From: Candidatus Parvarchaeota archaeon
GTDB lineage: Archaea; Nanobdellota; Nanobdellia; Parvarchaeales; Parvarchaeaceae
Direction of reading: 5' to 3'
NCBI GenBank assembly: GCA_023380585.1
Contig: JAMCRN010000026.1
Coordinates: 1 to 39,150, forward strand
DNA length: 39,150 nt
Shown: positions 1-24,952 of the stretch, one piece after another
Numbering within the stretch: position 1 is the stretch's first letter
How the letters are laid out: the number at the start of each line of letters is the position of its first letter
Notes under the pieces: model-generated
Database searches by the model: none
What the model saw: only the letters and a program-made list of their open reading frames with translations
Told to the model about the DNA's origin: nothing
Program-made: the position numbers and the translations under genes

Positions 1-1889
1 TACCTGCTTCTTCTTCTACTATAATATACATAGGTTACGCCCCAGTCTCAACGAATTTGTTAAATAGTGTCAATGATGGGGAAGCCCCGCAATTGTCTCC
101 AGTATATGGAGAGTACGATGACGGAGCGAACGTCTTTAACGATTATTTCAATGCGTTGTACCCGTCCAGCGATTTCTTTGTCCAAAGTGGTTACTCCATG
201 TCCCAAGTTGTAACATCATGTGCTTCAAGCACTAACTGTTATTCTAATAAAGTATACTATATAAAATCAACCGGGACCGGAGCTCGCGCCTTTGACGTCG
301 CTTATAGCAAGCCGATACCCGATCAAGCTGCGATAATTTTAGGTTCTAACATCGACACTTCTATATCCACTGAAGGGATAGTTTCTTTAGGCGCAGCCTC
401 TATGTCAACATCAACACCGGGCATAGACTACGCTACCACAAATGGAACCTCATTATCAATAACATATTTGCAAAACGGTGGATTTAGTAGCTCATCTGCG
501 GCAAATTCACCAGGTCCGAATTTTGATGGGATAGAATTAGAATACGTGCCGGGTGCTTCAGATGTTACGGCGCAGCTTGTAAACAAGACCGCAACATTAA
601 GCTATACAAATGTAATCCCTTCATCCTATAGTGCCGGTTTGTATATGGGGATAGCGACCGCGACCTTAAACGTACAAGAATTAGATTACACAAGCTGGAT
701 GGCCGCAGCGGCCTATCCCCCGAATGGAGTAATGCCATCAGTCACATTTATGAGTATAGCTCCCCCAACAAGTATGACTATTTCGACATCTACCGGAACG
801 TACAGCGCTAACACATCGTCCGAGACAGATAATGGCGTTGATTACCTATTTTCTAATCCATCGGTAACTGCTGGCTCGTCCTTTTCTTTCAACTATTGGA
901 AACCAAAATCTGTCATAAATTATGCGAATTTGACTATAACGAACTCACAGACTTCAGCGACTCCGGCGCCATTCCAACAGCTCGTGAATATTCCCAACTC
1001 CGTTTATAATACTTATGCAAATTCGGAACTCAACAACACCGTTTTTTTTAACATTTCTACTGGAGGGGTAATCCCTTCCTGGCTGGAGAGTTACGCATAT
1101 TCGACAAATGCCATGTTCTGGCTGAGGTTTGATAGCGGTATACCAGCGTCAACCTCGATCAAGAGCGTAGGTGTAGGTTTTGCGAAAGCATCGACTAATC
1201 TTTTGAATAATTCTAGTGATGGGGAGGCCCCGCAGCTGTCATCAGCTTACGGGAAGTACGACGACGGGGCGGACGTGTTTAACTTCTATGATAATTTTGC
1301 TGGGACGAGTTTAGGCGATGAATGGCAGATATTCAACCAGGGCAACGGCACATACTCTGTTAATAATGGTTTAACACTCTCAGAGAAAGCATTTAAGACC
1401 CAGATCGACGTGGTCACAATAGCGTCATTTTCTTCTGGAATTTTTGAGGGAAGAATAACTTCACAAAATTATGGCAGTTATCGTGGCACCGGGATGGCAT
1501 TCGACACCGTGCTGCCTACTGATTCAGGAGGACAGCAGGACGGATATTTCTTTATGGCGTCTGATAACGGACGGACTGGCGATGCTGATATATATTCCGT
1601 AGTCTCCGGTGCACAGACATCTGTTGGCTCCGCTTCGGTGAATCCTCCCTCCACACCGTATCTAATGACGGTAGAGTGGCCAAACACCGGAAATGAAGCA
1701 TGGCTAAATAATTATAATACGTATATAACGTCTACAAACACTGCCGTCTCTAAAGGCCCTTCTTATTTGGATCTTTATGCCGGTTCAGATGGAAGTAATA
1801 TAGGGACAATATCATTTTCATATGTCAGAGTAAGAGCCTATCCCCCGAATGGGGCCATGCCTTCCGTATCTTTCAGCAGTGTAGGTTGA
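1..1889 (+). CDS. DUF2341-module surface protein, 5' end outside the window
   Basis: The reading frame is open from base 3 with no stop, and the residues before the first possible start (a TTG at 57) already match the family, so the gene begins left of the window. The visible part holds the end of one DUF2341-like unit (IYIGYAP..., then GEAPQLSPVYGEYDDGANVF), a beta-rich Ser/Thr/Asn-rich region closing with AYPPNGVMPSVTF near 709-750, a linker, and a full second unit from about 960. The second unit has PFQQLV, IPSWLES, GEAPQLSSAYGKYDDGADVF and a ConA/LamG-like region beginning DNFAGTSLGDEWQIF, and closes with RAYPPNGAMPSVSF just before the stop. Composition and many N-glycosylation sequons fit an extracellular protein. 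It is a paralogue of the protein at 23621. It converges on the secretion operon at 1954. Ligand and function are unknown. Confidence 0.85.
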   Translation, partial: PASSSTIIYIGYAPVSTNLLNSVNDGEAPQLSPVYGEYDDGANVFNDYFNALYPSSDFFVQSGYSMSQVVTSCASSTNCYSNKVYYIKSTGTGARAFDVAYSKPIPDQAAIILGSNIDTSISTEGIVSLGAASMSTSTPGIDYATTNGTSLSITYLQNGGFSSSSAANSPGPNFDGIELEYVPGASDVTAQLVNKTATLSYTNVIPSSYSAGLYMGIATATLNVQELDYTSWMAAAAYPPNGVMPSVTFMSIAPPTSMTISTSTGTYSANTSSETDNGVDYLFSNPSVTAGSSFSFNYWKPKSVINYANLTITNSQTSATPAPFQQLVNIPNSVYNTYANSELNNTVFFNISTGGVIPSWLESYAYSTNAMFWLRFDSGIPASTSIKSVGVGFAKASTNLLNNSSDGEAPQLSSAYGKYDDGADVFNFYDNFAGTSLGDEWQIFNQGNGTYSVNNGLTLSEKAFKTQIDVVTIASFSSGIFEGRITSQNYGSYRGTGMAFDTVLPTDSGGQQDGYFFMASDNGRTGDADIYSVVSGAQTSVGSASVNPPSTPYLMTVEWPNTGNEAWLNNYNTYITSTNTAVSKGPSYLDLYAGSDGSNIGTISFSYVRVRAYPPNGAMPSVSFSSVG

Positions 1890-1953: not shown

Positions 1954-4065
1954 TTATATTATATGCGTCGCTGACAGAACCAGTCCTCCGACAGAGGAGA
2001 ACACAAGAGTCACTATGACTGCTACTAATATATAAAGCACTATCGATATCAGCAGCGTCGAAGCTATGTTTTCCCTCAAAAGGACCTTATCCCCCGGTCT
2101 CGATATCCCCGATATAGCGTATCCTATTATTACGCTTAGGGTTATCAAATATATCCCTATTATTACTTGAAAGTCATACAGAGGGATCTCCCCACCACTC
2201 AGGTTAAACAGACTGAATGCGAACGGAAGCACAGAAGAGACTCCTCCGGATGCCGATGTACCACTGTTTATACCGCTCTGGATAGCGCTTATGCTACCAG
2301 AAAGCGACCTTAATACGGTGCCTATCAGCGTTGTTAGCCCTACCACTATCCCTGCCATTACTGGGCTCAACAGCCCGACTTCTACCCTCATTCCAGAAGT
2401 AACTTCTTCTAACAGAGACCTCACCTCTTCTTCTATTCTCTTTAGGTTCGCTAGATGCTTCGAGACATAAAGAGTGGCGGAAGCAGAGTTCTCCACGCTT
2501 TTTCTTGCCGATTCTATAAACACTTTTGTTGAAGCGATTATCATGGGAGATGGGAAGAACCTTGTTGAACCTGTGAGCTTGTCGAAAAAGGCCTCTTTGA
2601 GAGACATACCAAGTTTTCTCATATTGTTCACAGTGACATTGAAAAAATCGGCTATTGGAGTCTTCTTCATGTTGTCGCTTACCTTTATGATAGCGGCTTC
2701 GGGAGGGTAACCCTGCGAAAGGAATGAACCCATCTGAAACAAAGCAGCTCCGAATGAGTCCTCCGCACTCATAAGTTCCTCCTGTGTATCCTTTAGCTGT
2801 ATTACGGATAATTTTGAATATACGTATATGCTTAGTCCGATGCTCGCTGTTACGAATAATGATACGTATATTTGGTCAGGACCGAAAACCCCCAAAAATG
2901 GGGACAAATAAACCACAGGTATAAGTAGCAGGATGAAGACTGCTGCCGCAGGTATCAATGCGTTCATGGCAATTTTCTTTTTTCCGATTTTTAAGAAAAA
3001 GCTGCCGACTTTCGGTAAGTTTGGTATCCCACTTAAGTCTGGCGCGGCGAAACCCGCTGGCCGAGTGGTGAGCTTGTTTCTTATCAAGAAATATATCATC
3101 AATGGGAGCGCAATGTCATACATCAGGGCGAGCAGAATTCCAAAGTCAGGTACGGCTACGAAAGCCATAAGCATCGGAGCAAGTACAAGCCCTAATACTG
3201 GGAGGACCATACCTAGCATGTATACTGTATTGAGTGGCTCTTTAAGAGAAGAAGCATAAACAGTCATAGACTCGAATGTTCCACTCAATATCCGCTGCGA
3301 AGCTTCATCTAGAAGCGCCTGCCTAGTCTCTTCACTTTCCTGAGTAGTAGAGCTTTCTATGAGAAATATTGCATCAGTAAAAGCCGGGCTGCTTTTAGCC
3401 CATCGCATTGAATATTCATCAAGAGCCTCTTTTATGTTTGTGTACTTCCTTGCTGCAGTGTCCCACACTAGTTTCTTTAAGTCCAAAGCCATATAACTGT
3501 TTAGGTTGTCGGAAGCGAACTGTACAGCCTGCTCTAGGTTAGGACTCTGTCGCATGAATATCACTAGATATAATACAAAAGTCACAAGGTCGCCGGAAGT
3601 CTTACTCAATCTTGCGTTCATCTGCTGCTTCGGGAACTGTCTTATCTCTACAAACGCACCTATTCCAAGGAATATTAGGATTATCCCAATCAATGGCTGT
3701 CCTATGATGATTATTGATATCCCGATGATAATCCCCAACAAAAGCGCGAATATCCCAAAGCCGTATAACTCTTTAACTGAAAAATCATATCCTAAGAGAT
3801 AGAGCAGAGTGTTCGCTTTTTTCTCCTCGTCTGGATTTACTTTAAACTTTATGACTCTACCTACAGTACTCGCGCCGAAATTTATTATCTTAGACAACGA
3901 AGAGGGATTCTTTTCCTTGAATATCTTATACTCTAACGATCTAAGTTCGTTTCTGGCGTCCTGGTCCTTCTCAAGTATCTCTTTCGGGATTATCTCCCTC
4001 TGCTGAGAGTATAAATCTACGATTGGCTTTAATGGAGGAGATGTTATCTCTTTTCCTTCAGCCAT
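1954..4065 (-). CDS. TadC/FlaJ-type membrane platform protein of an archaeal type IV pilus-like system
   Basis: A 703-residue protein with a soluble N-terminus and about nine hydrophobic segments (near 99-142, 277-330, 365-417, 563-590, 632-656 and 668-698). Two cytoplasmic alpha-helical T2SSF/GspF-like domains lie between them: the first around 150-275, containing SGDLVTFVLYLVIFMRQSPN, and the second around 425-560, containing AALFQMGSFLSQGYPPEAAI. A duplicated F domain in one long polypeptide is typical of archaeal FlaJ/TadC-like platforms, which anchor the motor ATPase in the membrane. Its start overlaps the end of the upstream ATPase gene by 22 bp, so the two are translationally coupled. 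No pilin or prepilin peptidase lies in this operon, so I cannot tell whether the machine builds an archaellum, an adhesive pilus or a secretion fibre. Confidence 0.88.
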   Translation of the reverse strand: MAEGKEITSPPLKPIVDLYSQQREIIPKEILEKDQDARNELRSLEYKIFKEKNPSSLSKIINFGASTVGRVIKFKVNPDEEKKANTLLYLLGYDFSVKELYGFGIFALLLGIIIGISIIIIGQPLIGIILIFLGIGAFVEIRQFPKQQMNARLSKTSGDLVTFVLYLVIFMRQSPNLEQAVQFASDNLNSYMALDLKKLVWDTAARKYTNIKEALDEYSMRWAKSSPAFTDAIFLIESSTTQESEETRQALLDEASQRILSGTFESMTVYASSLKEPLNTVYMLGMVLPVLGLVLAPMLMAFVAVPDFGILLALMYDIALPLMIYFLIRNKLTTRPAGFAAPDLSGIPNLPKVGSFFLKIGKKKIAMNALIPAAAVFILLLIPVVYLSPFLGVFGPDQIYVSLFVTASIGLSIYVYSKLSVIQLKDTQEELMSAEDSFGAALFQMGSFLSQGYPPEAAIIKVSDNMKKTPIADFFNVTVNNMRKLGMSLKEAFFDKLTGSTRFFPSPMIIASTKVFIESARKSVENSASATLYVSKHLANLKRIEEEVRSLLEEVTSGMRVEVGLLSPVMAGIVVGLTTLIGTVLRSLSGSISAIQSGINSGTSASGGVSSVLPFAFSLFNLSGGEIPLYDFQVIIGIYLITLSVIIGYAISGISRPGDKVLLRENIASTLLISIVLYILVAVIVTLVFSSVGGLVLSATHII

Positions 4066-6284
4066 AGCTCAAAAGCCCTCGTTATGTTACTGCTTTCTGC
4101 GACACCATACTCTGTCTTTAATTTGTTGACTATGTCATAATACTGGTCTATAGCGGACGATACAAACTTGGCTTCCAAGAGCGAAGGGTCCCTAATCTTG
4201 TTTGAATGCTTGACCAGCATGCCAAGGAAATCCGCCCTTCCCTGTATGTTGTCAAGAACCGCATCCCAATTGCCGGCCCAGGTTTCTACGTTTGAAGCTA
4301 TCTCCTTGACCACATAACTGTTGCCTTCTAACAGGTCAGGAGTAGGCCTCAACTCGTCCTTATTTATATCATATTTCACCAGATCAACAAAACCGTTCTC
4401 ATAGAAAGGATCCTGCTCCCAGTCCTTTCTTACTTCGGTTATATTCAACAGCCGCCTCTTTTCAGACAACCTGTCGATCGTCTTTATCTTGTTCACCGAG
4501 ACTATCAGGTCCGTGGCTTTGAAACTGGTGCGCGGGACTCCCAAGTCATTTACCACTCTGTCGAATACTCCGTAAGGGTTCTCTCCGTGTATGGTCCCCA
4601 TAACTACGTTCGAGAGTGCTCCTACTCGCATCGCTTCATACAGCGCCTTTGCTTCAGTGCTCCTTACCTCCCCGACTATAAGAGAGCTGTCTCCGAGCCT
4701 TAATGTCGTCCTTATGCCTTCTTCCGCTGTCATCTCTGCCTTTTCCCCAGTGATTGCACTCTGTACCTTGAGCGGTAGGATGTCATACCCGAGGTCTATA
4801 AAAGAGCTGTAAGGTATCTCCATCGTGTCTTCGACAGTTATTATCCTATATTTCTTCATCAACAGTAGCATCAAAGCCGAGAGCACAGACGTTTTTCCTG
4901 CGCCCCTAGTACCACTTATTAGTATCGTCCTTGCACCTTCCACGCAGAACCAAAGAAGTCCAGCAGCAAAAGGTGACATCATCTTGTTGTTTATGAAGAG
5001 AGGTATCGTCCATGGACTTTCCCTGTGTCTTCTGAATGCGATGCTTATCCCTTCTGGAGAAAGTGGCCTCTGCACTATCGATACTCTTGCATTTATGTTT
5101 TCAGTTATCAATTCTGTGTCCAGCACTGGATGACCTTCATCTAGCGGCCTGCCAGACATTAGACGGAACCTGGAAGCCCATGCTTCCGCTTCCTTAGCGT
5201 TAGGTATTATATTGGTCGAGCACTCCCCGTACTTAGAGTGTTTGACAAAGATAGGAGATTTGCTTATAGGAGAATTTATATATACATCTTCCACTTTGTC
5301 ATCTGTAAGTATTATTTCGCTCATCCCAAAACCAACAGTCAGCCTTACAAGTATATCGGAAAGTTTGTATATGGATTTGAAGTCAAGATTGTAATTATTC
5401 TTGCGATTCATCTCATCTATCATGTCTCTACCTATGTTTCTAAATACGCTTCTCATTCGGATGGCATCTGTGAATTCTGCCTCCTGCGGTCTATAGTCTA
5501 TAAGGCTGTTCCTGACCTGATCGAGTATGTTGTACTCGTCAACATTTAGTAGCAGCTCCGGCGGTGCCATATGGTAGAGATACTGTGACACTCCAGGTAT
5601 TTTGTATATGGTTACTTGTGTCTGGTTGGCAGGACCTATCGTATAACTCTCGACTTCCACCGCAGTGATTGGCGGCTCCAGCATTATCCTTGTGTATGTG
5701 AAGTTTGGCCTTATTAGCGGTTTCAATAGGGCTTTGTAGGGGGTACGATCTCCTATTTTATAGCCTAGTATGAAGTCTGTGCTTTTTTTAATAAAATCCG
5801 TCTTTCCTACCCTTTCCACTAGATCGATAAATTTTCCGAGTAGCCTTTCTGCTTCAGGGGATTCGTCATACTTTGTCTTTACTCTCATCTCCCGCAGAGC
5901 CCTCACACCGAAGACATAGGCGCCTATAGGATCCCTTTTAAATCGCTGGAATAACAGGTAATTGAAGACCGAGACCTCATTCGGGAATTTTTTCTGGACT
6001 ATCTCATCGAAAGTGTTTCCCACATCAGACTCTAACGCGGATTTGTATGAGTCGGCCAAATCATTGAAAAGGTCCGCTTCTTCCTTTACATATATATAGT
6101 TCCTGTCACTGACGATTACTAGCGAAGTCACGTGCCCAGCTTCTATTATTGCATCGGTTATCTTCTCGAATATGTCTTCATTGTCTTCCGGATTAGGATA
6201 AAGGACGCTAAAAGGCACTTTATAGGTAAGAGTTATCTCCCCCTCTTCCCTGGAGATGGTGTAATCTTTTCTCTTTATCTCCAT
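4044..6284 (-). CDS. FlaI/TadA/GspE-family secretion ATPase
   Basis: A hexameric motor ATPase of the type II/IV secretion superfamily, acting at the cytoplasmic face with the TadC-like partner encoded next. A Walker A motif GTRGAGKTS lies at about residues 458-466. An Asp-box region ITVEDTMEIPY is at about 482-492, Walker B-like DSSLIVGEVRSTEA at about 532-545, and a His box TIHGENPYGVFDRV at about 564-577. The N-terminal 300 residues are a divergent family-specific region. The 746-residue length is greater than that of a minimal FlaI (about 550). It overlaps the platform gene by 22 bp and follows the protease gene after 26 bp, giving a three-gene minus-strand operon. The assignment to the superfamily is firm; the exact branch (archaellum, pilus or Tad) is not resolved. 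Confidence 0.93.
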   Translation of the reverse strand: MEIKRKDYTISREEGEITLTYKVPFSVLYPNPEDNEDIFEKITDAIIEAGHVTSLVIVSDRNYIYVKEEADLFNDLADSYKSALESDVGNTFDEIVQKKFPNEVSVFNYLLFQRFKRDPIGAYVFGVRALREMRVKTKYDESPEAERLLGKFIDLVERVGKTDFIKKSTDFILGYKIGDRTPYKALLKPLIRPNFTYTRIMLEPPITAVEVESYTIGPANQTQVTIYKIPGVSQYLYHMAPPELLLNVDEYNILDQVRNSLIDYRPQEAEFTDAIRMRSVFRNIGRDMIDEMNRKNNYNLDFKSIYKLSDILVRLTVGFGMSEIILTDDKVEDVYINSPISKSPIFVKHSKYGECSTNIIPNAKEAEAWASRFRLMSGRPLDEGHPVLDTELITENINARVSIVQRPLSPEGISIAFRRHRESPWTIPLFINNKMMSPFAAGLLWFCVEGARTILISGTRGAGKTSVLSALMLLLMKKYRIITVEDTMEIPYSSFIDLGYDILPLKVQSAITGEKAEMTAEEGIRTTLRLGDSSLIVGEVRSTEAKALYEAMRVGALSNVVMGTIHGENPYGVFDRVVNDLGVPRTSFKATDLIVSVNKIKTIDRLSEKRRLLNITEVRKDWEQDPFYENGFVDLVKYDINKDELRPTPDLLEGNSYVVKEIASNVETWAGNWDAVLDNIQGRADFLGMLVKHSNKIRDPSLLEAKFVSSAIDQYYDIVNKLKTEYGVAESSNITRAFELWLKEKR

Positions 6285-6310: not shown

Positions 6311-8731
6311 TTATATCTTAATCCTCTTTTTTTGTCTTCTTTTTCTTTTTATAGATTCGAATATGGTCAGTCCAGCAAGGCCTAAAGTCACTATCCCTAA
6401 GATTAGGTAGATCTGGTATAAGAGCGGGGATATCTGTATGTTCTGGGAGCTTCCGTTCTCATTCTTATAGCTGTATTTAGACCCATAGGCATACACTGTC
6501 AGATTATAGTCTTTTTGGGGGATATTCTGGAATGAGGTCTTACCGAGGAAATTAGTGGAATTATGCACAGAATGGTTACCGATATTAAGTATTACAGAGG
6601 CTCCCACTATAGGTATTCCAAGAAATGTCGACACTGTTATAACAGCGTTATAAACAGGGAGTATTATGGTCTTTGAAATGTTGCTCTGGTCTAATTCTGT
6701 GGGTTTTGGGAGGAGATCAAAGCCGTTGAACACCACATCGTTCACCTTGAAACTGCTATTAAGCGGTACCCACACACTATCATTGAATAAGTATGTAAGT
6801 CCGTCATAAGACACTGATACGTTTTCCGGTATTACGGTATACCCTTGGTCGTTTGAAAATCTCAGTGACGCTCTTTTCTCTTGTATGAAATAAACATAAA
6901 TCAGATTTGGTGCCCTAAAGCTCATATTTTCAAGCCCGTATCTGAATCCAGAGTAATATTCCGGATTTGCTGACACGTTCACCAGGCTATCATGTATAGC
7001 TGCGACTTTTCCGCCGTTCGATACAGTTCCAATGTAAACCGCAGTCAGGTTGGATAATGGTTCGAAGCCGATGAAAGAGACGTTTACTTTCCCACCAGGG
7101 GGACTATCCTTTAAAAAAACATAAGATAGAGGAGTAAGCCTCCATACAAAGCTCACATTCAGAGGCGAGTCGACTGCAAATGACCCGAAATTTTGAAATA
7201 TTGTCGGACCGTCATCTACTCTAAACCCGACGAGGGTATAAGTGACATTGGAAGTATTGTAGTATTTCTGAGAGGATACATTAAGAGTTAGACCATGGTC
7301 GACGAATTCTGTCGTATTAACCGTACCATTTTCAAAGAAGAACTCCACCCTATCCTGCAAAAGATAATTCAAACCCACGCTTCCGGATGCGGAGACAAAA
7401 AATGATATATTTGGAGAGTTTGACGATTCTAAACCGGAATAGTTTTTAAAGATGTAACGCCTTCCATTTATATCATCGGATGAGTAAGCCTTTACTGACA
7501 CTTTTTCCCCGAAGCTGAAATTTAGAGATACACTGTTGCTGTAATTTACCCCATTTATCTGGAATGTTATTCCGCTTAAAGGAACAATAAAATTAATTTT
7601 ATAATTCGTCTTGGACAGTGCCTGGATCAGGCTATAAGCTTTGGGGGATCCAAGCCCTGTAACCATATTATAAGTACCGTCTGCACAGTAGTAGTCGTTG
7701 CATCCACTCGTTATATTGTTGAAAGTAAGGTTTCCGTCGGCGTAATAGACCATATATAGACTTCTGTCTATGAACGCCAGGTCTCCCGCCGTCTTCTGGT
7801 TGATAAGTGCGTCCAAAGCCGACCAACTCGGAGCCGCAACACTAGTACCGAAATATCCTCCCCACGATGAGTTTATATAAGCGCATAGCGCAGTCCCTGC
7901 GTTGAAAGCTACATCTGGTACCATCCTGGCAGTGCTTATGTTCGGCTGGAAGGGAAGCTTACCGAAGAAAATGCTCTCTCCTCCTCCGCTACCGTTCCAA
8001 GCAGTTTCGGATTGGTAAGAGCCTCCGCTACTGACTGATAGTACTGTGCCTCCGACCGAAACCACATTAGGGCTGGAAGCAGGGTAGTTTACATTCAGAG
8101 TGCCCTGCCCGTTGTATGCTCCGGAGTCTCCACTGGCCGCGAATATGTTTATCCCTTTGTTTTCTGCAGAAGACAATATCTGGTTTACCTGTTGTATTCC
8201 TGCATTATTATATTCCAATTCTGTCGCCCCCCAGCTAATTGATATTGTCTGTACAGGTAGATTGTTTACTGTGAAATTTATAGCATTGAAAAGCCATGAA
8301 GAATTAGGTGCGATCACGAGATATATCTTGGCGCCGGGCGCAAGCGAGTGGAAAGTTTCTACGTCTAAAGCGCTTTCCGTTGCCCATTTTTGCGTGTAAT
8401 GTCTAGGCAGTCCGAAAGGATATTCTACCAGAAGATTAGATCCGTTCACGAGCGGTGACAATGAATATTGCGAATCGAATACGTTAAGGTCGGAAATTAG
8501 GGATGGGTCTCCTCTCGCTACGATTATGGCGACGCTCGAGCCGTTTCCATATATTCCTTGTTTAAAAAGGGTATTGAAACCATAAGCATCCTGTATCTGT
8601 GAAGGGGTCAAGAATTGGCATACTGATCCCTGAAAAGGTTCAGATTTGAAATTAAGCATAATGCCATGAGCGACGTTGAAATCAAGCATCAAAAACAATG
8701 TAATGAGCACTATGGTTAGCAGCAATCTCAT
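6311..8731 (-). CDS. Secreted, membrane-anchored sedolisin (S53) serine protease
   Basis: An 806-residue acid-active serine carboxyl protease. Residues 1-22 form a signal peptide. The catalytic domain runs from about 38 to 375 with all four family residues visible: Glu119 and Asp123 (ATESALDVE), Asp202 of the oxyanion site (AASGDSGA) and Ser297 (GYFGTSVAAPSW). The C-terminal half is beta-rich with many N-glycosylation sequons. It ends in a membrane helix near 770-790 and a strongly basic tail, so the protein is anchored facing outward. The usual N-terminal activation pro-domain of about 150-200 residues is missing: the mature-type sequence begins right after the signal peptide. The two Asp ligands of the sedolisin calcium site appear as Asn (FNNITSG near 337-343, TYNMVTGLG near 353-361). 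It heads the operon with the secretion ATPase. A TATA-like ATTAATAATTTAAGC lies at 8752-8766. Confidence 0.9.
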   Translation of the reverse strand: MRLLLTIVLITLFLMLDFNVAHGIMLNFKSEPFQGSVCQFLTPSQIQDAYGFNTLFKQGIYGNGSSVAIIVARGDPSLISDLNVFDSQYSLSPLVNGSNLLVEYPFGLPRHYTQKWATESALDVETFHSLAPGAKIYLVIAPNSSWLFNAINFTVNNLPVQTISISWGATELEYNNAGIQQVNQILSSAENKGINIFAASGDSGAYNGQGTLNVNYPASSPNVVSVGGTVLSVSSGGSYQSETAWNGSGGGESIFFGKLPFQPNISTARMVPDVAFNAGTALCAYINSSWGGYFGTSVAAPSWSALDALINQKTAGDLAFIDRSLYMVYYADGNLTFNNITSGCNDYYCADGTYNMVTGLGSPKAYSLIQALSKTNYKINFIVPLSGITFQINGVNYSNSVSLNFSFGEKVSVKAYSSDDINGRRYIFKNYSGLESSNSPNISFFVSASGSVGLNYLLQDRVEFFFENGTVNTTEFVDHGLTLNVSSQKYYNTSNVTYTLVGFRVDDGPTIFQNFGSFAVDSPLNVSFVWRLTPLSYVFLKDSPPGGKVNVSFIGFEPLSNLTAVYIGTVSNGGKVAAIHDSLVNVSANPEYYSGFRYGLENMSFRAPNLIYVYFIQEKRASLRFSNDQGYTVIPENVSVSYDGLTYLFNDSVWVPLNSSFKVNDVVFNGFDLLPKPTELDQSNISKTIILPVYNAVITVSTFLGIPIVGASVILNIGNHSVHNSTNFLGKTSFQNIPQKDYNLTVYAYGSKYSYKNENGSSQNIQISPLLYQIYLILGIVTLGLAGLTIFESIKRKRRQKKRIKI

Positions 8732-10527: not shown

Positions 10528-11520
10528 ATGATAGTTTTTAGCACTGCCGTAGCCGGCTCAGATCGCATAAAATTAGAGGAAACTGCAGCCAGGATAGCGT
10601 CAAAAAACGGCAAGAAACTGAAGATACTCAATTTTATAGACGAGATGATTGCGAGTGCGAGGGAACTCAACAAAAGCATAAATCCCGCAAACCTCCCGAA
10701 CCTCGACATAAAGACCCTTGAAATACTAAAGACCAGCGCTTTTCACAAGATAATCGACAAGACGAAAGAAGAGAAAGGCATAGACTACATAATAGACGGC
10801 CATGTGTCTTTTTGGTGGAAGGGAGGACCAATAAACCTTCTCAACCTGAACGATTTCAAAGAGTTAGATCCTGACTTCTTCATATCGATAGCAGTGACTC
10901 CATATGAAGTTATGAAAAATCTGAAGCGGAAAAAAGAATGGACAGATAAAGAGATAGACGAGTACGAGATAGCAGTATGGTCAGAACTGGAGATATACAC
11001 GGCTGATCTTATAAGCGACGCAATGGGTAAGAAAAATTACCTCATAGGTTCCAAAGATGATCCATCCGTTCTATACGACTTAGTATACTCCCAATGGAAA
11101 CCAAAGATATATATGAGCTATACTATGGCCAACAGGAAGGAAGGTTATGCTAGACTAAACTCCTTCATAAAGAAACTGAGAAAACATGCGATAGTCTTTG
11201 ATCCAAAGGCAGTGGATATAAATTCTTACAATCAGGAGAGGGATTGGAGGATAAAGCGACTTGTGTTCAACCAGACAGTTAGGAGAGACTATCATCTCAT
11301 AGACCAGTCTGATATAGTCGTAGTACATCTCTCTGAGTTGGTATATTCTAGTGGCGTGGATAGCGAGAGGATGCATGCCCATACTACAGGCAAGACAGTC
11401 CTCCTGTACTTTCCTTTCGAAACTTACAGCCCGTTCACGCCTTACTTTGTAGATAAGATGTACAAGCAAGAAGAAGAGATAATATCAGAAGTCGCCAAAC
11501 TTTCCAGGAAAAGGAGATAG
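10528..11520 (+). CDS. Degenerate AdkA-like kinase domain fused to a nucleoside 2-deoxyribosyltransferase-like domain
   Basis: Residues 1 to about 185 resemble archaeal adenylate-kinase-like P-loop proteins (YIIDGHVSFWW, LDPDFFISIAVTPYEVMKNLKRKKEW). The P-loop is not recognisable, however: TAVAGSDRIKLEE stands where GxPGxGKT is expected. Residues from about 190 look like a nucleoside 2-deoxyribosyltransferase/DRHyd fold: IYMSYTMANRKEG, VFDPKAVDI, then IDQSDIVVVHL and SSGVDSERMHAHTTGKTVLL, in which Glu of VDSE matches the catalytic Glu of the GTxxE motif. The enzyme may act on a nucleotide N-glycosidic bond. The real substrate is unknown. It lies near rdgB, which suggests nucleotide-pool cleaning. 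TATA-like AAAGTTTAAAT is at 10475-10485. Confidence 0.68.
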   Translation: MIVFSTAVAGSDRIKLEETAARIASKNGKKLKILNFIDEMIASARELNKSINPANLPNLDIKTLEILKTSAFHKIIDKTKEEKGIDYIIDGHVSFWWKGGPINLLNLNDFKELDPDFFISIAVTPYEVMKNLKRKKEWTDKEIDEYEIAVWSELEIYTADLISDAMGKKNYLIGSKDDPSVLYDLVYSQWKPKIYMSYTMANRKEGYARLNSFIKKLRKHAIVFDPKAVDINSYNQERDWRIKRLVFNQTVRRDYHLIDQSDIVVVHLSELVYSSGVDSERMHAHTTGKTVLLYFPFETYSPFTPYFVDKMYKQEEEIISEVAKLSRKRR

Positions 11521-11527
11521 GGCAATT

Positions 11528-12223
11528 TTATACCACCAGGAGGTCTGTCGTTATCCTCTTTACTGTTTTGGAATATTTCATGATCCCCTTCTTTTTTATG
11601 TCGTCAGAGCTTCCTATGTAAGGGTTGAATTTTGGAAACACTACAGCGTACTTTAACTTTCCCTGTGGATAGAGTCCTTTTGGCATTCTAACGTCCATAA
11701 GCAGCCAGCAGTCCTGTTTGTAATAAACAGAATTCGAATCCTTAAGCGTCACCGCAGGATGCATATGCCCAAGGCAGACTGTAGTACTTTCAGAAACAAG
11801 CTTTTTTGAGGGCATCGCATGCCCGTGCATAAAGCCTATGTCTTTGTATATAAATTCATCAACAAGCTGGACGTTGCCCAGTCTAGATGTGATTTTTGAT
11901 AGGCCCCCATCATGATTTCCTTTGGTTATTATTACCTCTTCGAATTTAGCAGACAAAGAATTAATAACCCTGAATATCATTCCGCCTTCGAGCGGAAGAA
12001 TTTGGGTGAAACTTCCTCGGATGTCCCCAAGTATTATCAACTTTCTTTTTTCTATATGAAGTATTTTATCAAGCGTTTCTTGTGTTTTATCCCATATGAC
12101 ATAGCCATCATTAAGGAGCTCTTTTTCGAAGCCGATGTGCAAATCGCTTATCACCGCGTATTCGTCTAAGAAAGCTATCGGTTCTCCCTTCTTCAATCTT
12201 AATGGTATATCCTCGAGATCCAC
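11528..12223 (-). CDS. Calcineurin-like metallophosphoesterase (COG1407-type)
   Basis: A 231-residue archaeal ICC-like phosphoesterase. Metal-site motifs appear in family order: DLH at residues 27-29 (VISDLHIGFE), GD at 66-67 (IILGDIRG), GNHDG at 102-106, GFMHGHAMP near 130, and CLGHMHP near 150. Members sit beside or resemble nuclease SbcD/Mre11 and are predicted phosphodiesterases or nucleotidases, but the substrate is not established. The usual His after the GD motif (GDxKH) is Gly here (GDIRG), a possible variation in metal coordination. The start is a GTG at 12223. A TATA-like GTATTTAACC (12246-12255, minus strand) is at the correct distance for a leaderless start. The gene converges on the 10528 gene with 7 bp between stops. 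Confidence 0.86.
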   Translation of the reverse strand: MDLEDIPLRLKKGEPIAFLDEYAVISDLHIGFEKELLNDGYVIWDKTQETLDKILHIEKRKLIILGDIRGSFTQILPLEGGMIFRVINSLSAKFEEVIITKGNHDGGLSKITSRLGNVQLVDEFIYKDIGFMHGHAMPSKKLVSESTTVCLGHMHPAVTLKDSNSVYYKQDCWLLMDVRMPKGLYPQGKLKYAVVFPKFNPYIGSSDDIKKKGIMKYSKTVKRITTDLLVV

Positions 12224-12259
12224 TTGTTTTATATGCTTATAAAAAGGTTAAATACTTAA

Positions 12260-13606
12260 TCATATCCCGGCGAACATGACTCCGGCAAATATTGCTATCA
12301 TAAGCAAGACAAGTATCACCTCTTTCATCCTAATTCTTATATTTTGCCCTTCATTCTGGCTGCTATGTATATCTGACAAATCCATCTTCATGAGTATGTT
12401 CGCATAGTAAAAAGTCGAGAAAAGCAATATCGCGAACAAGGCTATTACAAGCGACACATAGCCGTGTGCGAGCAGCGCCGAGAATATGAGAAGTTTTCCG
12501 AAAAATCCTATAGTAGGCGGCAGCCCAAAAAGAGAAAGTACACCTATGAACATTGCAGCAGTCGCTATCTTCGATATGCGTGGCATTCTATTTGCGTCTT
12601 TCAAATATATTATTTTCTTGTCCTCAAAAATCTTGTAGGCCAGGAAGACCAATGCATCGGCAACAGCGAAAGAAAATATATAGAATATAGAGGCGGAGAC
12701 CCCATTACGATTCAGAAGCGCAAGGCCTATGAAGGCGAATCCTGCCTGTGCTATACTAGAATAAGCCAGTAATCTTTTTATCCTGTCCTGGACCGAGGCC
12801 AGGAACGTCGCGAAGAATATCGTCGCTATCGCAAGGCCGAAGAATACTATACTCACGAAAGAGGATGATACCTGGAACCCGAAGAAAAATACTCTAATCA
12901 GCGCCAGCAAACCCGCTGTTTTAGACACAGAAACAAGAAATGCTGTGACCGCACTGTTTGAGGACTCATAGACGTCCGGCGCCCACATATGGAACGGCAC
13001 TATTGTTGCCTTGAATGCCAGACCAGCTATGACTATCCCGACTCCGAGTATAAATGGGAGATAATCAACATTTGATACCTTCCCGAAAGAGAGGGTCCCT
13101 GCCCCAGCATATATCAGCGATATACCGAATATCAGGATTATCACAGATATGAAGCTTATAGCTACGTATTTCATCGTGGCTTCCATTCTGCCTAGAGTCT
13201 TCTGGAAGAAGACGAGGCTGTAGGATGCTATAGATATCATCTCTATCGCAATCAGGAGCGAAATGAAGTTGCTGGAGATTATCACAAGGGTGGCTCCAAG
13301 AACAGCAAAAAGATACAAAACGTCTATATACGTGCTGTGTTCGGGGGTGTCTATCAGAAGATAAGCATATACTGCGACTGAAATGAACAGCACGAATCCA
13401 TTCACAAAGTAGGAGTATTGTACTGAGGAGAAAAACTCCACGTTCATGTTTCCGAAAACAAGCTCAGTAATAAAAGACAGGATCAATATGCCAAAAGTGA
13501 CATAGTGTATGATATTGTTCGTCTGTCTTTTAAGACCGATTCTCAGCAAGTCGAGTAATATTACCCCAAGGACCCCAGCAAACAACACATATTCGGCATT
13601 TATCAT
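12260..13606 (-). CDS. nuoN: Complex I antiporter-like subunit NuoN
   Basis: A 448-residue polytopic membrane protein with about 14 helices, one of the three Mrp-antiporter-like proton channels of respiratory complex I. Key elements are Glu122 in a helix (LLIAIEMISIASYSLVFF), corresponding to the essential TM5 Glu; FKATIVPFHMWAPDVYESS, the discontinuous-helix lysine and loop; and LLAYSSIAQAGFAFIGLAL. It is the last gene of the J-K-L-M-N operon. Its start overlaps the nuoM stop by 4 bp, which implies coupled translation. Whether the electron donor is NADH, F420H2 or ferredoxin cannot be read from these subunits. Confidence 0.93.
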   Translation of the reverse strand: MINAEYVLFAGVLGVILLDLLRIGLKRQTNNIIHYVTFGILILSFITELVFGNMNVEFFSSVQYSYFVNGFVLFISVAVYAYLLIDTPEHSTYIDVLYLFAVLGATLVIISSNFISLLIAIEMISIASYSLVFFQKTLGRMEATMKYVAISFISVIILIFGISLIYAGAGTLSFGKVSNVDYLPFILGVGIVIAGLAFKATIVPFHMWAPDVYESSNSAVTAFLVSVSKTAGLLALIRVFFFGFQVSSSFVSIVFFGLAIATIFFATFLASVQDRIKRLLAYSSIAQAGFAFIGLALLNRNGVSASIFYIFSFAVADALVFLAYKIFEDKKIIYLKDANRMPRISKIATAAMFIGVLSLFGLPPTIGFFGKLLIFSALLAHGYVSLVIALFAILLFSTFYYANILMKMDLSDIHSSQNEGQNIRIRMKEVILVLLMIAIFAGVMFAGI

Positions 13607-15021
13607 AACGTCACACTAAACGAATTCAAAAGTATACCCGGCACGATTCCCAGTACCAGAATGAACATCGAAAAAAACGACAGTTGCAGTATGTCGTATA
13701 CAGATATGTCCCTTACTTTCTGAAGTTCTTTCTTCAGAGAAGTAAAAAGTATCCTCTTTATAGCGCTTATATAATAATTTGTAGCTATAAGTACTCCCGC
13801 TAGGGAAAACAGCACAAAAGCGTATGTCATGTATCCTCCTATAAAGACTAGAGCCTCTCCTATGAAATTAGACATCCCAGGCACGCCTATTGTTGCGAGC
13901 ATCGCAAACATGAGAAAGAAGGCGTAAAAAGGCATGTTCTTGGCAAGTCCTCCAAGTTTGTCAATGTCCCTTGTGCCAGTCTTTTCCTTCAGTATACCGG
14001 CCAGGACGAACAGCATGCTGACTATGAATCCATGGCTGACCATGAGGAAGACCGCGCCTGATTCCCCATATCCATTTATTGAGAATATTCCTATGAAAAC
14101 CAATGCCATGTAGAATATGCTCGAATAGGCCACAAGCCGCTTGAAGTCCTTCTGTGCAGAAGCCACAAGGGACACGTAAAGCAGGGTAAATACGCCGAGT
14201 ATCAACGCCGGGACCTGTATAATAGATGCGACGTTTGGCAGCAACTCTAATCCAAAAAGGAGCAGTACATATCCTCCCATCTTAAGAAGCAACCCCGCAA
14301 GTATTACACTGCCGGTTGTAGGAGCACTGGTATGCGCATCAGGTAGCCATGAATGCAACGGAAAAATAGGCATCTTTATGAGAGCAGTCATAAGAACCAG
14401 GCCGAATATAGTGTAAGATACCCATGCAGGTACGCTGCCTATCATCGTTCTTATCACAAACAGGTTGAAAGACCCTGTGTACAAGAACATAAGTATAAAT
14501 CCTGCCAGCAGTGTAAAGCTCCCGAACTGCGTAAAGACTAGGAACTTTATACTGGCTTTGTGCCTTGTCTCCTCTTCGCCCCAGAAAGCTATCATAAAGA
14601 AGACTGATATAAGCGTAACTTCCCAAACCACAAACAGTGAGATAAGATTAGTCGATACAAAAAGCAGTATCAGTGACATGTAAATCAACAAGAATAACAC
14701 ATAGAAGAGAGTCGCATTTTGCTTTATCTCTTTAAAGGCAGAATTTAGGCCTATTGCCGGAACTATCACTGCAAGCAACATGAACGGGATGCTTATAGAA
14801 TTCAGACCTAGCGAGAAGGAGAAGTCTATAGAACTCACCAGACTTATTGAAAAGCCAGAGAACCCAGTTATCAACCCTACCAGGAAAGTGGCTACAGTTG
14901 CTGCTACAGCAGAGAGCACTATCTTTCGCTCATCCAGCCTGGGTTTTATTAGGGAGTTTATGTACAGCCAGATTATCCCTATCGCAGGGATTACCAGGAA
15001 CAGGAACAGGCTTATACTCAT
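13603..15021 (-). CDS. nuoM: Complex I antiporter-like subunit NuoM
   Basis: A 472-residue polytopic antiporter-like subunit. The conserved channel Glu is Glu134 (FVVWEVTLISVFFMI). The TM7/TM8 region reads ALIKMPIFPLHSWLPDAHTSAPT, a NuoM/NuoL hallmark, followed by LAGLLLKMGGYVLL and FKRLVAYSSIFYMALVFIGI. It lies between nuoL and nuoN with 4 bp stop/start overlaps on both sides. It provides one proton translocation path in the membrane arm. Confidence 0.94.
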   Translation of the reverse strand: MSISLFLFLVIPAIGIIWLYINSLIKPRLDERKIVLSAVAATVATFLVGLITGFSGFSISLVSSIDFSFSLGLNSISIPFMLLAVIVPAIGLNSAFKEIKQNATLFYVLFLLIYMSLILLFVSTNLISLFVVWEVTLISVFFMIAFWGEEETRHKASIKFLVFTQFGSFTLLAGFILMFLYTGSFNLFVIRTMIGSVPAWVSYTIFGLVLMTALIKMPIFPLHSWLPDAHTSAPTTGSVILAGLLLKMGGYVLLLFGLELLPNVASIIQVPALILGVFTLLYVSLVASAQKDFKRLVAYSSIFYMALVFIGIFSINGYGESGAVFLMVSHGFIVSMLFVLAGILKEKTGTRDIDKLGGLAKNMPFYAFFLMFAMLATIGVPGMSNFIGEALVFIGGYMTYAFVLFSLAGVLIATNYYISAIKRILFTSLKKELQKVRDISVYDILQLSFFSMFILVLGIVPGILLNSFSVTL

Positions 15022-23620: not shown

Positions 23621-24952
23621 ATGCAGAAAAAGGCGCAGTTTGTTACTATATTTTTTTCCATTTTCGTAATATCAGTCATATTGTCGATATTGGCGTTGGA
23701 ATCAAACACCGTCTCTAACAACATGAACCAGGGCGCTATAAAAAATTCCTATTATTTCGGTAACAGCATATTCCAGGAACTGTCATACCAGAACAATCTT
23801 CTGAGCTCGTTTAACCCCTCGCCGCAGTCAGCCAATATGTTCTTAAACACGGTAAACACTATATTCAGGAATTTCGCAAAGGACTATTCCGTCAATTTAA
23901 GCTGTGGGGTTGTGGTATCTAATCAATACCTTGTGTTCTCAAATACTCCGCCTTCTTTACAGACATGCGTGGAAATTAATATAATAAACACCCAAAACAT
24001 TCCGACTGCGAGCCCATTCCAGCAGCTTCTCATAGTGAACAGCTCAGCATACAGCCAATACGAAGCTCAAAACCTTGACAATGTGGAATTTTTCTTTCAA
24101 AATGGGACGATAATACCAAGCTGGATGGAATCAGGAAACAGCAACACCGCCCAACAGACATATTACTGGATCAAGCTCGGGAGCATACCTGCGGATTCCG
24201 CAATTAAAATATATATGGGTTTCGCGCCTACCGACGTCAACGTTTTAAACAACAGAACCACTGGAGAAGCTCCGACTCTTTCTCCATCATACGGAGAGTA
24301 CGACGACGGAGCCAACGTGTTCGATTATTACTTTCCAGGAGGTTCGGATGCAGGTTGGACATTGTCGGGGGCAGCAGGATATACTACCTCGGCCCCTTCA
24401 GGCTCTCCATTCGGTACAAATGCGCTTTATGCAGACGGTTCCGTCGGCGACTATATGTATATCCCTCTTCCAGGTTTTGATGCGACGGGTAATTACATTA
24501 TACAGTATTATGTCAATGTAGGGTCGCTCGGTGATTTCTTTTTTACTGCAAGTCCTTCAGGCGCAGGGACCATGACGCGTTTAGACGGGCGAGGCGGTTC
24601 TAACTATGTCGGACTCGCAAAAACAGCTTCATGGACTTCGTGGAATGCCCCGAAGACTTCTACAACAGCTTCAGAGAATGTGTGGTATTTGCAGACAACC
24701 GTTATTGCTGGTGGAGGAAGCTCTGTCGGAGACTATATATCTTCCGGAAGCACTACATATAACAATCTAGGCCTGACAGTGAATCCTCTGTCAACGACTT
24801 ACACAGACAGCGGAGGAACAGAAACATACACCCAGGATGGCACATATATAGGATTAATCGGAGACGGGGGCGGAGGGGTTTCCTATTGGAATGGTATTAT
24901 AGTAAGGGCTTACCCTCCTTACGGAGTTATGCCCACCGCTTCATTTACATGA
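23621..24952 (+). CDS. DUF2341-module surface protein with N-terminal membrane anchor
   Basis: A 443-residue protein. Residues 1-25 (MQKKAQFVTIFFSIFVISVI...) form an uncleaved anchor or a prepilin-like leader (KKA before Gln); the usual Glu5 is absent, so a prepilin is uncertain. Residues from about 45 to 120 look pilin-stalk-like helical. A DUF2341 unit follows: PFQQLLIVNSSAYS, NVEFFFQNGTIIPSWMES, YYWIKLGSIPADSAIKIYMGFAP, then GEAPTLSPSYGEYDDGANVF. A jelly-roll-like beta region ends with RAYPPYGVMPTASF at the stop. The same order of motifs occurs twice in the protein at the left edge of the window. The next gene, a glycosyltransferase, starts 7 bp downstream. Extracellular adhesion or S-layer-associated function is inference. 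Confidence 0.85.
   Translation: MQKKAQFVTIFFSIFVISVILSILALESNTVSNNMNQGAIKNSYYFGNSIFQELSYQNNLLSSFNPSPQSANMFLNTVNTIFRNFAKDYSVNLSCGVVVSNQYLVFSNTPPSLQTCVEINIINTQNIPTASPFQQLLIVNSSAYSQYEAQNLDNVEFFFQNGTIIPSWMESGNSNTAQQTYYWIKLGSIPADSAIKIYMGFAPTDVNVLNNRTTGEAPTLSPSYGEYDDGANVFDYYFPGGSDAGWTLSGAAGYTTSAPSGSPFGTNALYADGSVGDYMYIPLPGFDATGNYIIQYYVNVGSLGDFFFTASPSGAGTMTRLDGRGGSNYVGLAKTASWTSWNAPKTSTTASENVWYLQTTVIAGGGSSVGDYISSGSTTYNNLGLTVNPLSTTYTDSGGTETYTQDGTYIGLIGDGGGGVSYWNGIIVRAYPPYGVMPTASFT

Follow-up and report, generated by a model that had tools for sequence, protein, structure and literature searches.

Replacement of whole head domains between conserved brackets in DUF2341 surface proteins of DPANN archaea and in rudiviruses

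The window, i.e. the whole stretch of 39,150 nucleotides analysed here, corresponds to contig C26, read from the first base onwards, of a genome of 0.70 Mb that is 83% complete. Ribosomal protein L2 of this genome is 64–69% identical to that of Parvarchaeota-labelled genomes and of Acidifodinimicrobium mancum, 54% identical to that of Rehaiarchaeum and 35–39% identical to that of five Micrarchaeota- or Micrarchaeaceae-labelled genomes, indicating that the organism is a Parvarchaeales-like DPANN archaeon. Two surface protein genes in the window (Table 1) carry one and the same module architecture, composed of DUF2341, the motif GEAP..YDDGAxVF (the opening bracket), a beta domain, hereafter also referred to as the head, and the motif AYPPxGxMP (the closing bracket). 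Gene 1 is open at the first base of the contig, lacks its 5' end and holds two complete bracketed domains, and gene 2 holds one module. The motifs PFQQL and IPSWxES stand ahead of copies 2 and 3 and are absent from copy 1 because the contig starts inside the DUF2341 of the latter. Just past the pilus-type ATPase gene, positions 6311–8731 encode a large secreted protease of the subtilase family with a beta-rich C-terminal part and a terminal membrane helix.

Table 1. Features of the bracketed modules and the neighbouring pilus-type genes in the window.
Feature	Position	Strand	Evidence or remark
Surface protein gene 1, 628 aa: tail of first DUF2341 and two complete bracketed domains	3–1889	+	weak DUF2341 match, 18.8 bits; phrog_7548, E = 8e-33
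Opening bracket, copy 1, GEAPQLSPVYGEYDDGANVF	78–137	+	motif positions
Exchangeable domain, copy 1, type t3, 190 aa	138–707	+	relatives in G017 at 55%; SIRV1/2/3 domains match other t3 members
Closing bracket, copy 1, AAYPPNGVMP	708–737	+	motif positions (AYPPxGxMP from 711)
DUF2341 of module 2, with PFQQL and IPSWLES	924–1220	+	
Opening bracket, copy 2, GEAPQLSSAYGKYDDGADVF	1221–1280	+	motif positions
Exchangeable domain, copy 2, type c0, 184 aa	1281–1832	+	hhalign probability 98.4 to c0 family
Closing bracket, copy 2, RAYPPNGAMP	1833–1862	+	motif positions (AYPPxGxMP from 1836)
Type IV pilus-type platform protein (1954–4065) and assembly ATPase (4044–6284), convergent with gene 1	1954–6284	-	
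Surface protein gene 2, 443 aa, with hydrophobic N-terminal segment, stalk, DUF2341 and bracketed domain; divergent from elp3	23621–24952	+	
DUF2341 of gene 2	23969–24262	+	PF10102, 26.0 bits (cut-off 23.4)
Opening bracket, copy 3, GEAPTLSPSYGEYDDGANVF	24263–24322	+	mostly low-confidence linker in AlphaFold model
Exchangeable domain, copy 3, type c1, 194 aa, predicted ConA-like lectin fold	24323–24904	+	nearest relative (75%) from another species, in a gene that is not orthologous
Closing bracket, copy 3, RAYPPYGVMP	24905–24934	+	motif positions (AYPPxGxMP from 24908)

The open reading frames and the positions of both brackets confirmed the original prediction, made from the letters alone, that the same motif set recurs in three modules of two proteins. 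In the Pfam scan, only gene 2 passed the gathering threshold of DUF2341 (PF10102), gene 1 giving a weak match, and a genome-level search returned PF10102 matches over the cut-off on contigs C3, C23 and C26. When the copy 3 module was used as the query, copy 2 was matched at E = 5e-22 together with more copies on C3, C9, C20 and C23 of the same genome, so that the three-copy pattern is not a product of chance. The three beta domains of the window represent three families (t3, c0 and c1) with no homology between types by profile comparison, bearing out the further claim that the domains between the near-constant motifs differ completely. The between-bracket domains have no Pfam or NCBIfam coverage, none of the ten domains scanned against Pfam scored above the cut-off, and the c1 profile did not match any PDB sequence.

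The AlphaFold model of the gene 2 module (pLDDT 85.9) consists of DUF2341, then a linker, then a beta sandwich. The low-confidence residues 93–111 of this model span most of GEAP..YDDG. In the closing bracket, RAY forms the end of the sandwich's last strand, so that conservation of this bracket is partly structural, which qualifies the original reading. We infer that a flexible linker before the head, and a strand and tail behind it, are sensible sites for swapping heads without disturbing DUF2341. The best solved relatives of the copy 3 model include VIP36, ERGIC-53, legume lectins and CBM66 (TMt about 0.5–0.7), and on the strength of this model the c1 domain is predicted to have a ConA-like lectin/glucanase fold. 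Among viral proteins, the gene 2 model has its best relative in the DUF2341 protein of Sulfolobales Beppu rod-shaped virus 1; the best fold matches in BFVD also include TPX, a protein of Thermoproteus tenax virus 1 (model m55e5e7ffe07b; TMq 0.48). A further type, c2, appeared PA14-like by eye, but as neither Pfam nor PDB profile searches supported this and the AlphaFold model of a c2-type domain was poor (pLDDT 41), c2 is left unassigned.

The genome carries about ten modules, those beyond the window being located on C3, C9, C20 and C23. Modules were detected in 33 of 55 relatives, and all 28 sampled genomes of the genus were positive. When 237 genomes of the phylum were sampled evenly, only two families were positive; a GTDB genome scan added many Micrarchaeota-labelled contigs, and an IMG/VR scan found the module in viral contigs, named records confirming rudiviruses among them; a plasmid collection gave no match. 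The module profile is therefore not restricted to the two window genes, varied domains occurring elsewhere as well, and the suggestion of a lineage-specific module had to be abandoned given its presence in a second family of the same phylum, in Micrarchaeota-labelled genomes and in rudiviruses. Module-bearing open frames reach 4722 aa among the 55 relatives, and in three genomes (G017:C17, G025:C13 and G013:C5) frames of 4223–4722 aa with many tandem modules were observed, very large for genomes of less than 1 Mb. As two contigs of the assembly end inside modules (at position 1 of the window and at the end of C23), module counts in draft genomes are lower bounds.

Heads are replaced at orthologous loci. 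In a pilin-type gene (loci L023, L024, L029 and L032), DNA identity is about 60–95% across 1.5 kb of upstream sequence and DUF2341; in comparisons involving L029 or L032 it falls to 20–52% in most of the domain and recovers past AYPP, and between L023 and L024, which share the domain type, it is uniform without any collapse. Elsewhere in the genus, an orthologue of gene 2 adjoins elp3 as well; three of these genomes have it without the module. At this elp3 locus, comparison within G002/G003/G026 and G005/G025 revealed 70–100% identity in the upstream and N-terminal DNA, 21–58% in the domain and about 76–96% downstream. At the orthologous loci compared, that of gene 2 included, both flanks are mostly 70–95% identical at the DNA level and the domain is at chance level. 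For 17 of the 24 elp3-locus domains the closest relative is found at another locus (a few table entries being mis-registered), and the gene 2 domain of the window shows 75% identity elsewhere as against 45% at the same locus. In G001, G007 and G009 (L146, L150 and L148) the elp3-locus gene has the same N-terminus followed by short repeats (LYINGxExSN..) and no DUF2341, indicating that the whole module is replaceable too. Across the genus, the place next to the pilus platform protein where gene 1 lies is not a conserved module site, and orthology for the window's own genes thus comes from the elp3 locus only. Every DPANN sequence used here stems from a metagenome-assembled genome, which leaves individual chimeras possible; repetition of the replacement over many genomes and in isolate viruses argues against chimeric assemblies.

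Heads also move between non-orthologous genes. In four such pairs (L107/L111, L088/L096, L041/L092 and L095/L139) only the domain is common, with 70–100% DNA identity and limits at the brackets, and the DNA on both sides of it is unrelated or weakly similar. Together, conserved flanks around differing between-bracket DNA at orthologous loci and the same bracket-bounded domain in non-orthologous genes corroborated the original reading of fixed brackets enclosing an exchangeable domain. Base-level alignments mapped the crossovers to TATGAYGAYGG.GCTAATGTATT and TAYCCNCCAAAYGG.GT.ATGCC. Within the own genome, paralogues on C20 and C23 share 88% of their DUF2341 DNA and a near-identical 3' end and carry different heads. 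Two neighbouring modules in one gene of L085 (segment positions 1338 and 1867) are 100% identical in the DNA of the head and 89% identical in the DUF2341 protein, reflecting a recent copy or conversion event.

Ordinary fast divergence, by which all beta domains would descend vertically from one ancestor and merely evolve faster than DUF2341 and the edge strands, could draw on the start NFxGTSL..W and last strand WxRxRAYPP common to some domain types, and on the closing bracket being in part the final strand of the sandwich. However, among 120 modules, where two DUF2341 share 75% identity or more, the domains fall below 35% identity in 28 pairs and reach 80% or more in nine, with one pair between, and vertical divergence would have filled this almost empty gap; conversely, domains at least 80% identical occur in 16 pairs despite DUF2341 identities of only 34–62%. 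The abrupt shift of DNA identity at the brackets also speaks against it, and the sharing of domains at 70–100% DNA identity by non-orthologous genes refutes it as the sole explanation, leaving it hardly credible. Targeted diversification by a dedicated system, for instance a diversity-generating retroelement or a recombinase with site specificity for the bracket DNA, in place of general homologous recombination, would account for borders recurring in the same 20–30 bp of each bracket. We nevertheless regard it as very improbable, as whole domains change and not scattered adenines, and copies of the bracket DNA vary at synonymous sites, which suits a strict site-specific enzyme badly, recombinases not having been searched for systematically; a retroelement target in particular was dismissed in the absence of reverse transcriptase (PF00078) from the 83% complete own genome. 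Synonymous identity in the brackets is higher within genomes (0.50) than between genomes (0.38), and equally so in the preceding DUF2341 segment, so that the brackets are not unusually homogenised; excess synonymous identity was consequently dropped as a sign of a recombination hot spot, genome-specific codon use being also uncontrolled. Recombination between the brackets, as originally proposed, remains the best explanation of the crossover positions, although the process as such has not been observed, and that bracket homology drives it is our inference.

Several module proteins of the own genome have pilin-like N-termini (KSQSALEYMMTYGW and variants, as read by eye), those of the C20 and C9 paralogues being of the KSQSALEYM type. 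The N-terminus of gene 2, KKAQFVTIFF, has no E at +5 and that of gene 1 is missing, and none of the NCBIfam and Pfam pilin models reached its cut-off on the module proteins. Three near-neighbouring pilin-like genes on C20 (L018:8161–9282, 10747–12234 and 12417–13802) have 88–91% identical N-terminal DNA, and their bodies consist of LamG, DUF2341 plus head, and a beta-propeller, respectively, which suggests exchange at the pilin/body border as well. A LamG-like domain lies within DUF2341, between SWLESGN and YWLK, on C20 and C9 (L018:1680–3983; L019:2439–5456) and in the elp3 orthologues of G004, G011, G012, G014, G015, G019, G021, G023 and G024, gene 2 being without it. This insert is also replaced between elp3 orthologues (G011/G015 versus G024), so that the constant part itself contains a second slot of exchange.

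In rudiviruses, the cassette forms the C-terminus of a P564-type structural protein (SIRV1 ORF562, ORF580 of SIRV1 variant XX and SIRV2 ORF564), which corresponds to phrog_7548, of unknown function, in PHROGs. In the Icelandic viruses, its gene comes after that of ORF1070, for which a role as fibre protein has been proposed (PMC7911016), and the annotation of SIRV3 lists its product as a structural protein. All three domain families of the window are found in this one viral gene: t3-type heads, as in copy 1, in SIRV1, 2, 3, 5, 7, 9, 10, V3, V60 and V65, c0-type heads, as in copy 2, in SIRV4, 8 and 11, and a c1-type head, as in gene 2, in SIRV1 variant XX. SIRV1 and variant XX differ by a swap of the complete head at these same brackets, with 72–100% identity in the upstream DNA, 33–55% in the head and 1083 identical bases downstream that start within the closing bracket. 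The head of XX is about 69–70% identical to DPANN c1 heads, and identities to DPANN heads amount to 60% for SIRV4 and 62–64% for SIRV8/11. In the trees, viral DUF2341 forms one clade on a long stem (SH-aLRT 100), and the XX head sits inside the DPANN c1 family on a short end branch. The window proteins match phrog_7548 only at about positions 237–582 of 591 (E = 2.5e-25 and 8.3e-33) and failed to give a full-length match including the viral N-terminal part.

Taken together, these data make it very probable that the beta domains are exchangeable heads of DPANN surface proteins, replaced whole between two brackets from donors including other DPANN archaea and rudiviruses. In this view, GEAP..YDDGAxVF is a conserved, flexible linker by which a constant DUF2341 carries a beta head of some 190 aa, closed by AYPPxGxMP; at least one head type has a predicted ConA-like lectin fold, and many of the host proteins have N-termini that look pilin-like. 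Heads are swapped whole and at the same position, with crossovers inside the two bracket sequences, and are donated by further modules in the genome itself, by different DPANN species and, directly or via a third party, by rudiviruses. That DPANN archaea and Sulfolobales rudiviruses share one pool of interchangeable attachment heads that cross the cell-virus boundary, symbiont and virus possibly recognising partner cells with the same swappable domain, is a reading we favour with some reserve.

In the absence of binding data, we infer that the heads attach to glycans or filaments on partner or host cells and that their exchange alters binding specificity. This reading rests on the lectin fold, on the cassette being in a virion protein of viruses that use type IV pili for attachment (PMC4456609, PMC7911016), on DUF2341 in pilus loci, on a DUF2341 gene found together with pilin (epd) genes among the matches of a transformation screen in Methanococcus maripaludis (PMC10133366) and on proposals for DPANN jelly-roll proteins, none of which tests the window proteins. 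The heads might instead be catalytic or structural, acting in glycan hydrolysis or in an S-layer lattice, with exchange as drift among equivalent parts, and the lack of a binding assay and of a Pfam family for the ten scanned domains leaves room for this. We consider it unlikely without dismissing it, as the predicted fold is lectin-like with no enzyme family detected, the viral cassette belongs to a structural protein encoded beside the putative fibre protein, and the M. maripaludis screen links DUF2341 to pilins. If the heads do serve attachment, the rudiviral cassette suggests that in acidic hot springs and mine drainage cells and viruses trade attachment domains. Host choice and host attachment of DPANN archaea are unresolved and give hardly any molecular point of entry; a head replaced as a unit, with known borders and loci, offers a testable candidate for host specificity, and the two SIRV1 variants differing by one complete head provide a cultivable system for measuring head binding directly.

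Recombinational exchange of surface domains is already known from VARTIG (PMC8416519) and from bacterial adhesins (PMC10952558). In the literature searched, mostly open-access, we found no report of the bracketed cassette, of its exchange in DPANN archaea or of its sharing with rudiviruses, and none of the six open publications found to mention DUF2341 refers to rudivirus. The constant part of the module is the already known DUF2341, which corrects the original reading. VARTIG, the hypervariable Ig-domain proteins of Thermococcales (PMC8416519), are likewise archaeal surface proteins at a fixed locus with a distal domain exchanged between species by recombination, but they involve Ig domains and gene islands, with neither DUF2341 nor two-sided brackets described. 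Their authors saw no counterpart outside Thermococcales (PMC8416519), and Pfam scans of the window proteins and domains gave no match to an Ig family. The adhesins of the CshA/B NR2 type (PMC10952558) also shuffle ligand-binding domains between scaffolds, but they are bacterial, employ other domain families and scaffolds and, in the portion of that source available, show no sharing with viruses. DUF2341 also occurs in large proteins of type IV pilus loci in archaea that have been compared with PilY and proposed as pilus-tip adhesins (Makarova et al., 2016, PMC4858521); these, however, belong to methanococcal pilus loci, and the accessible part of that work contains no bracketed domain exchange. 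The LamG-like expansion near type IV pilus genes of Mia14 (PMC5498576) provides jelly-roll surface proteins in a small acidophilic DPANN archaeon for which host contact has been proposed; LamG is, however, another family, found here inserted inside DUF2341 in some paralogues, and bracketed exchange is absent from as much of that report as was at hand. The P564-type rudiviral protein differs in its viral N-terminal part (phrog_7548 1–236), in having no pilin-like or membrane-anchored stalk and in holding one module per gene, but shares with the DPANN proteins the order DUF2341, YDNG bracket, beta domain and PPNGVMP, the same three domain families and, between isolates, the same replacement borders.
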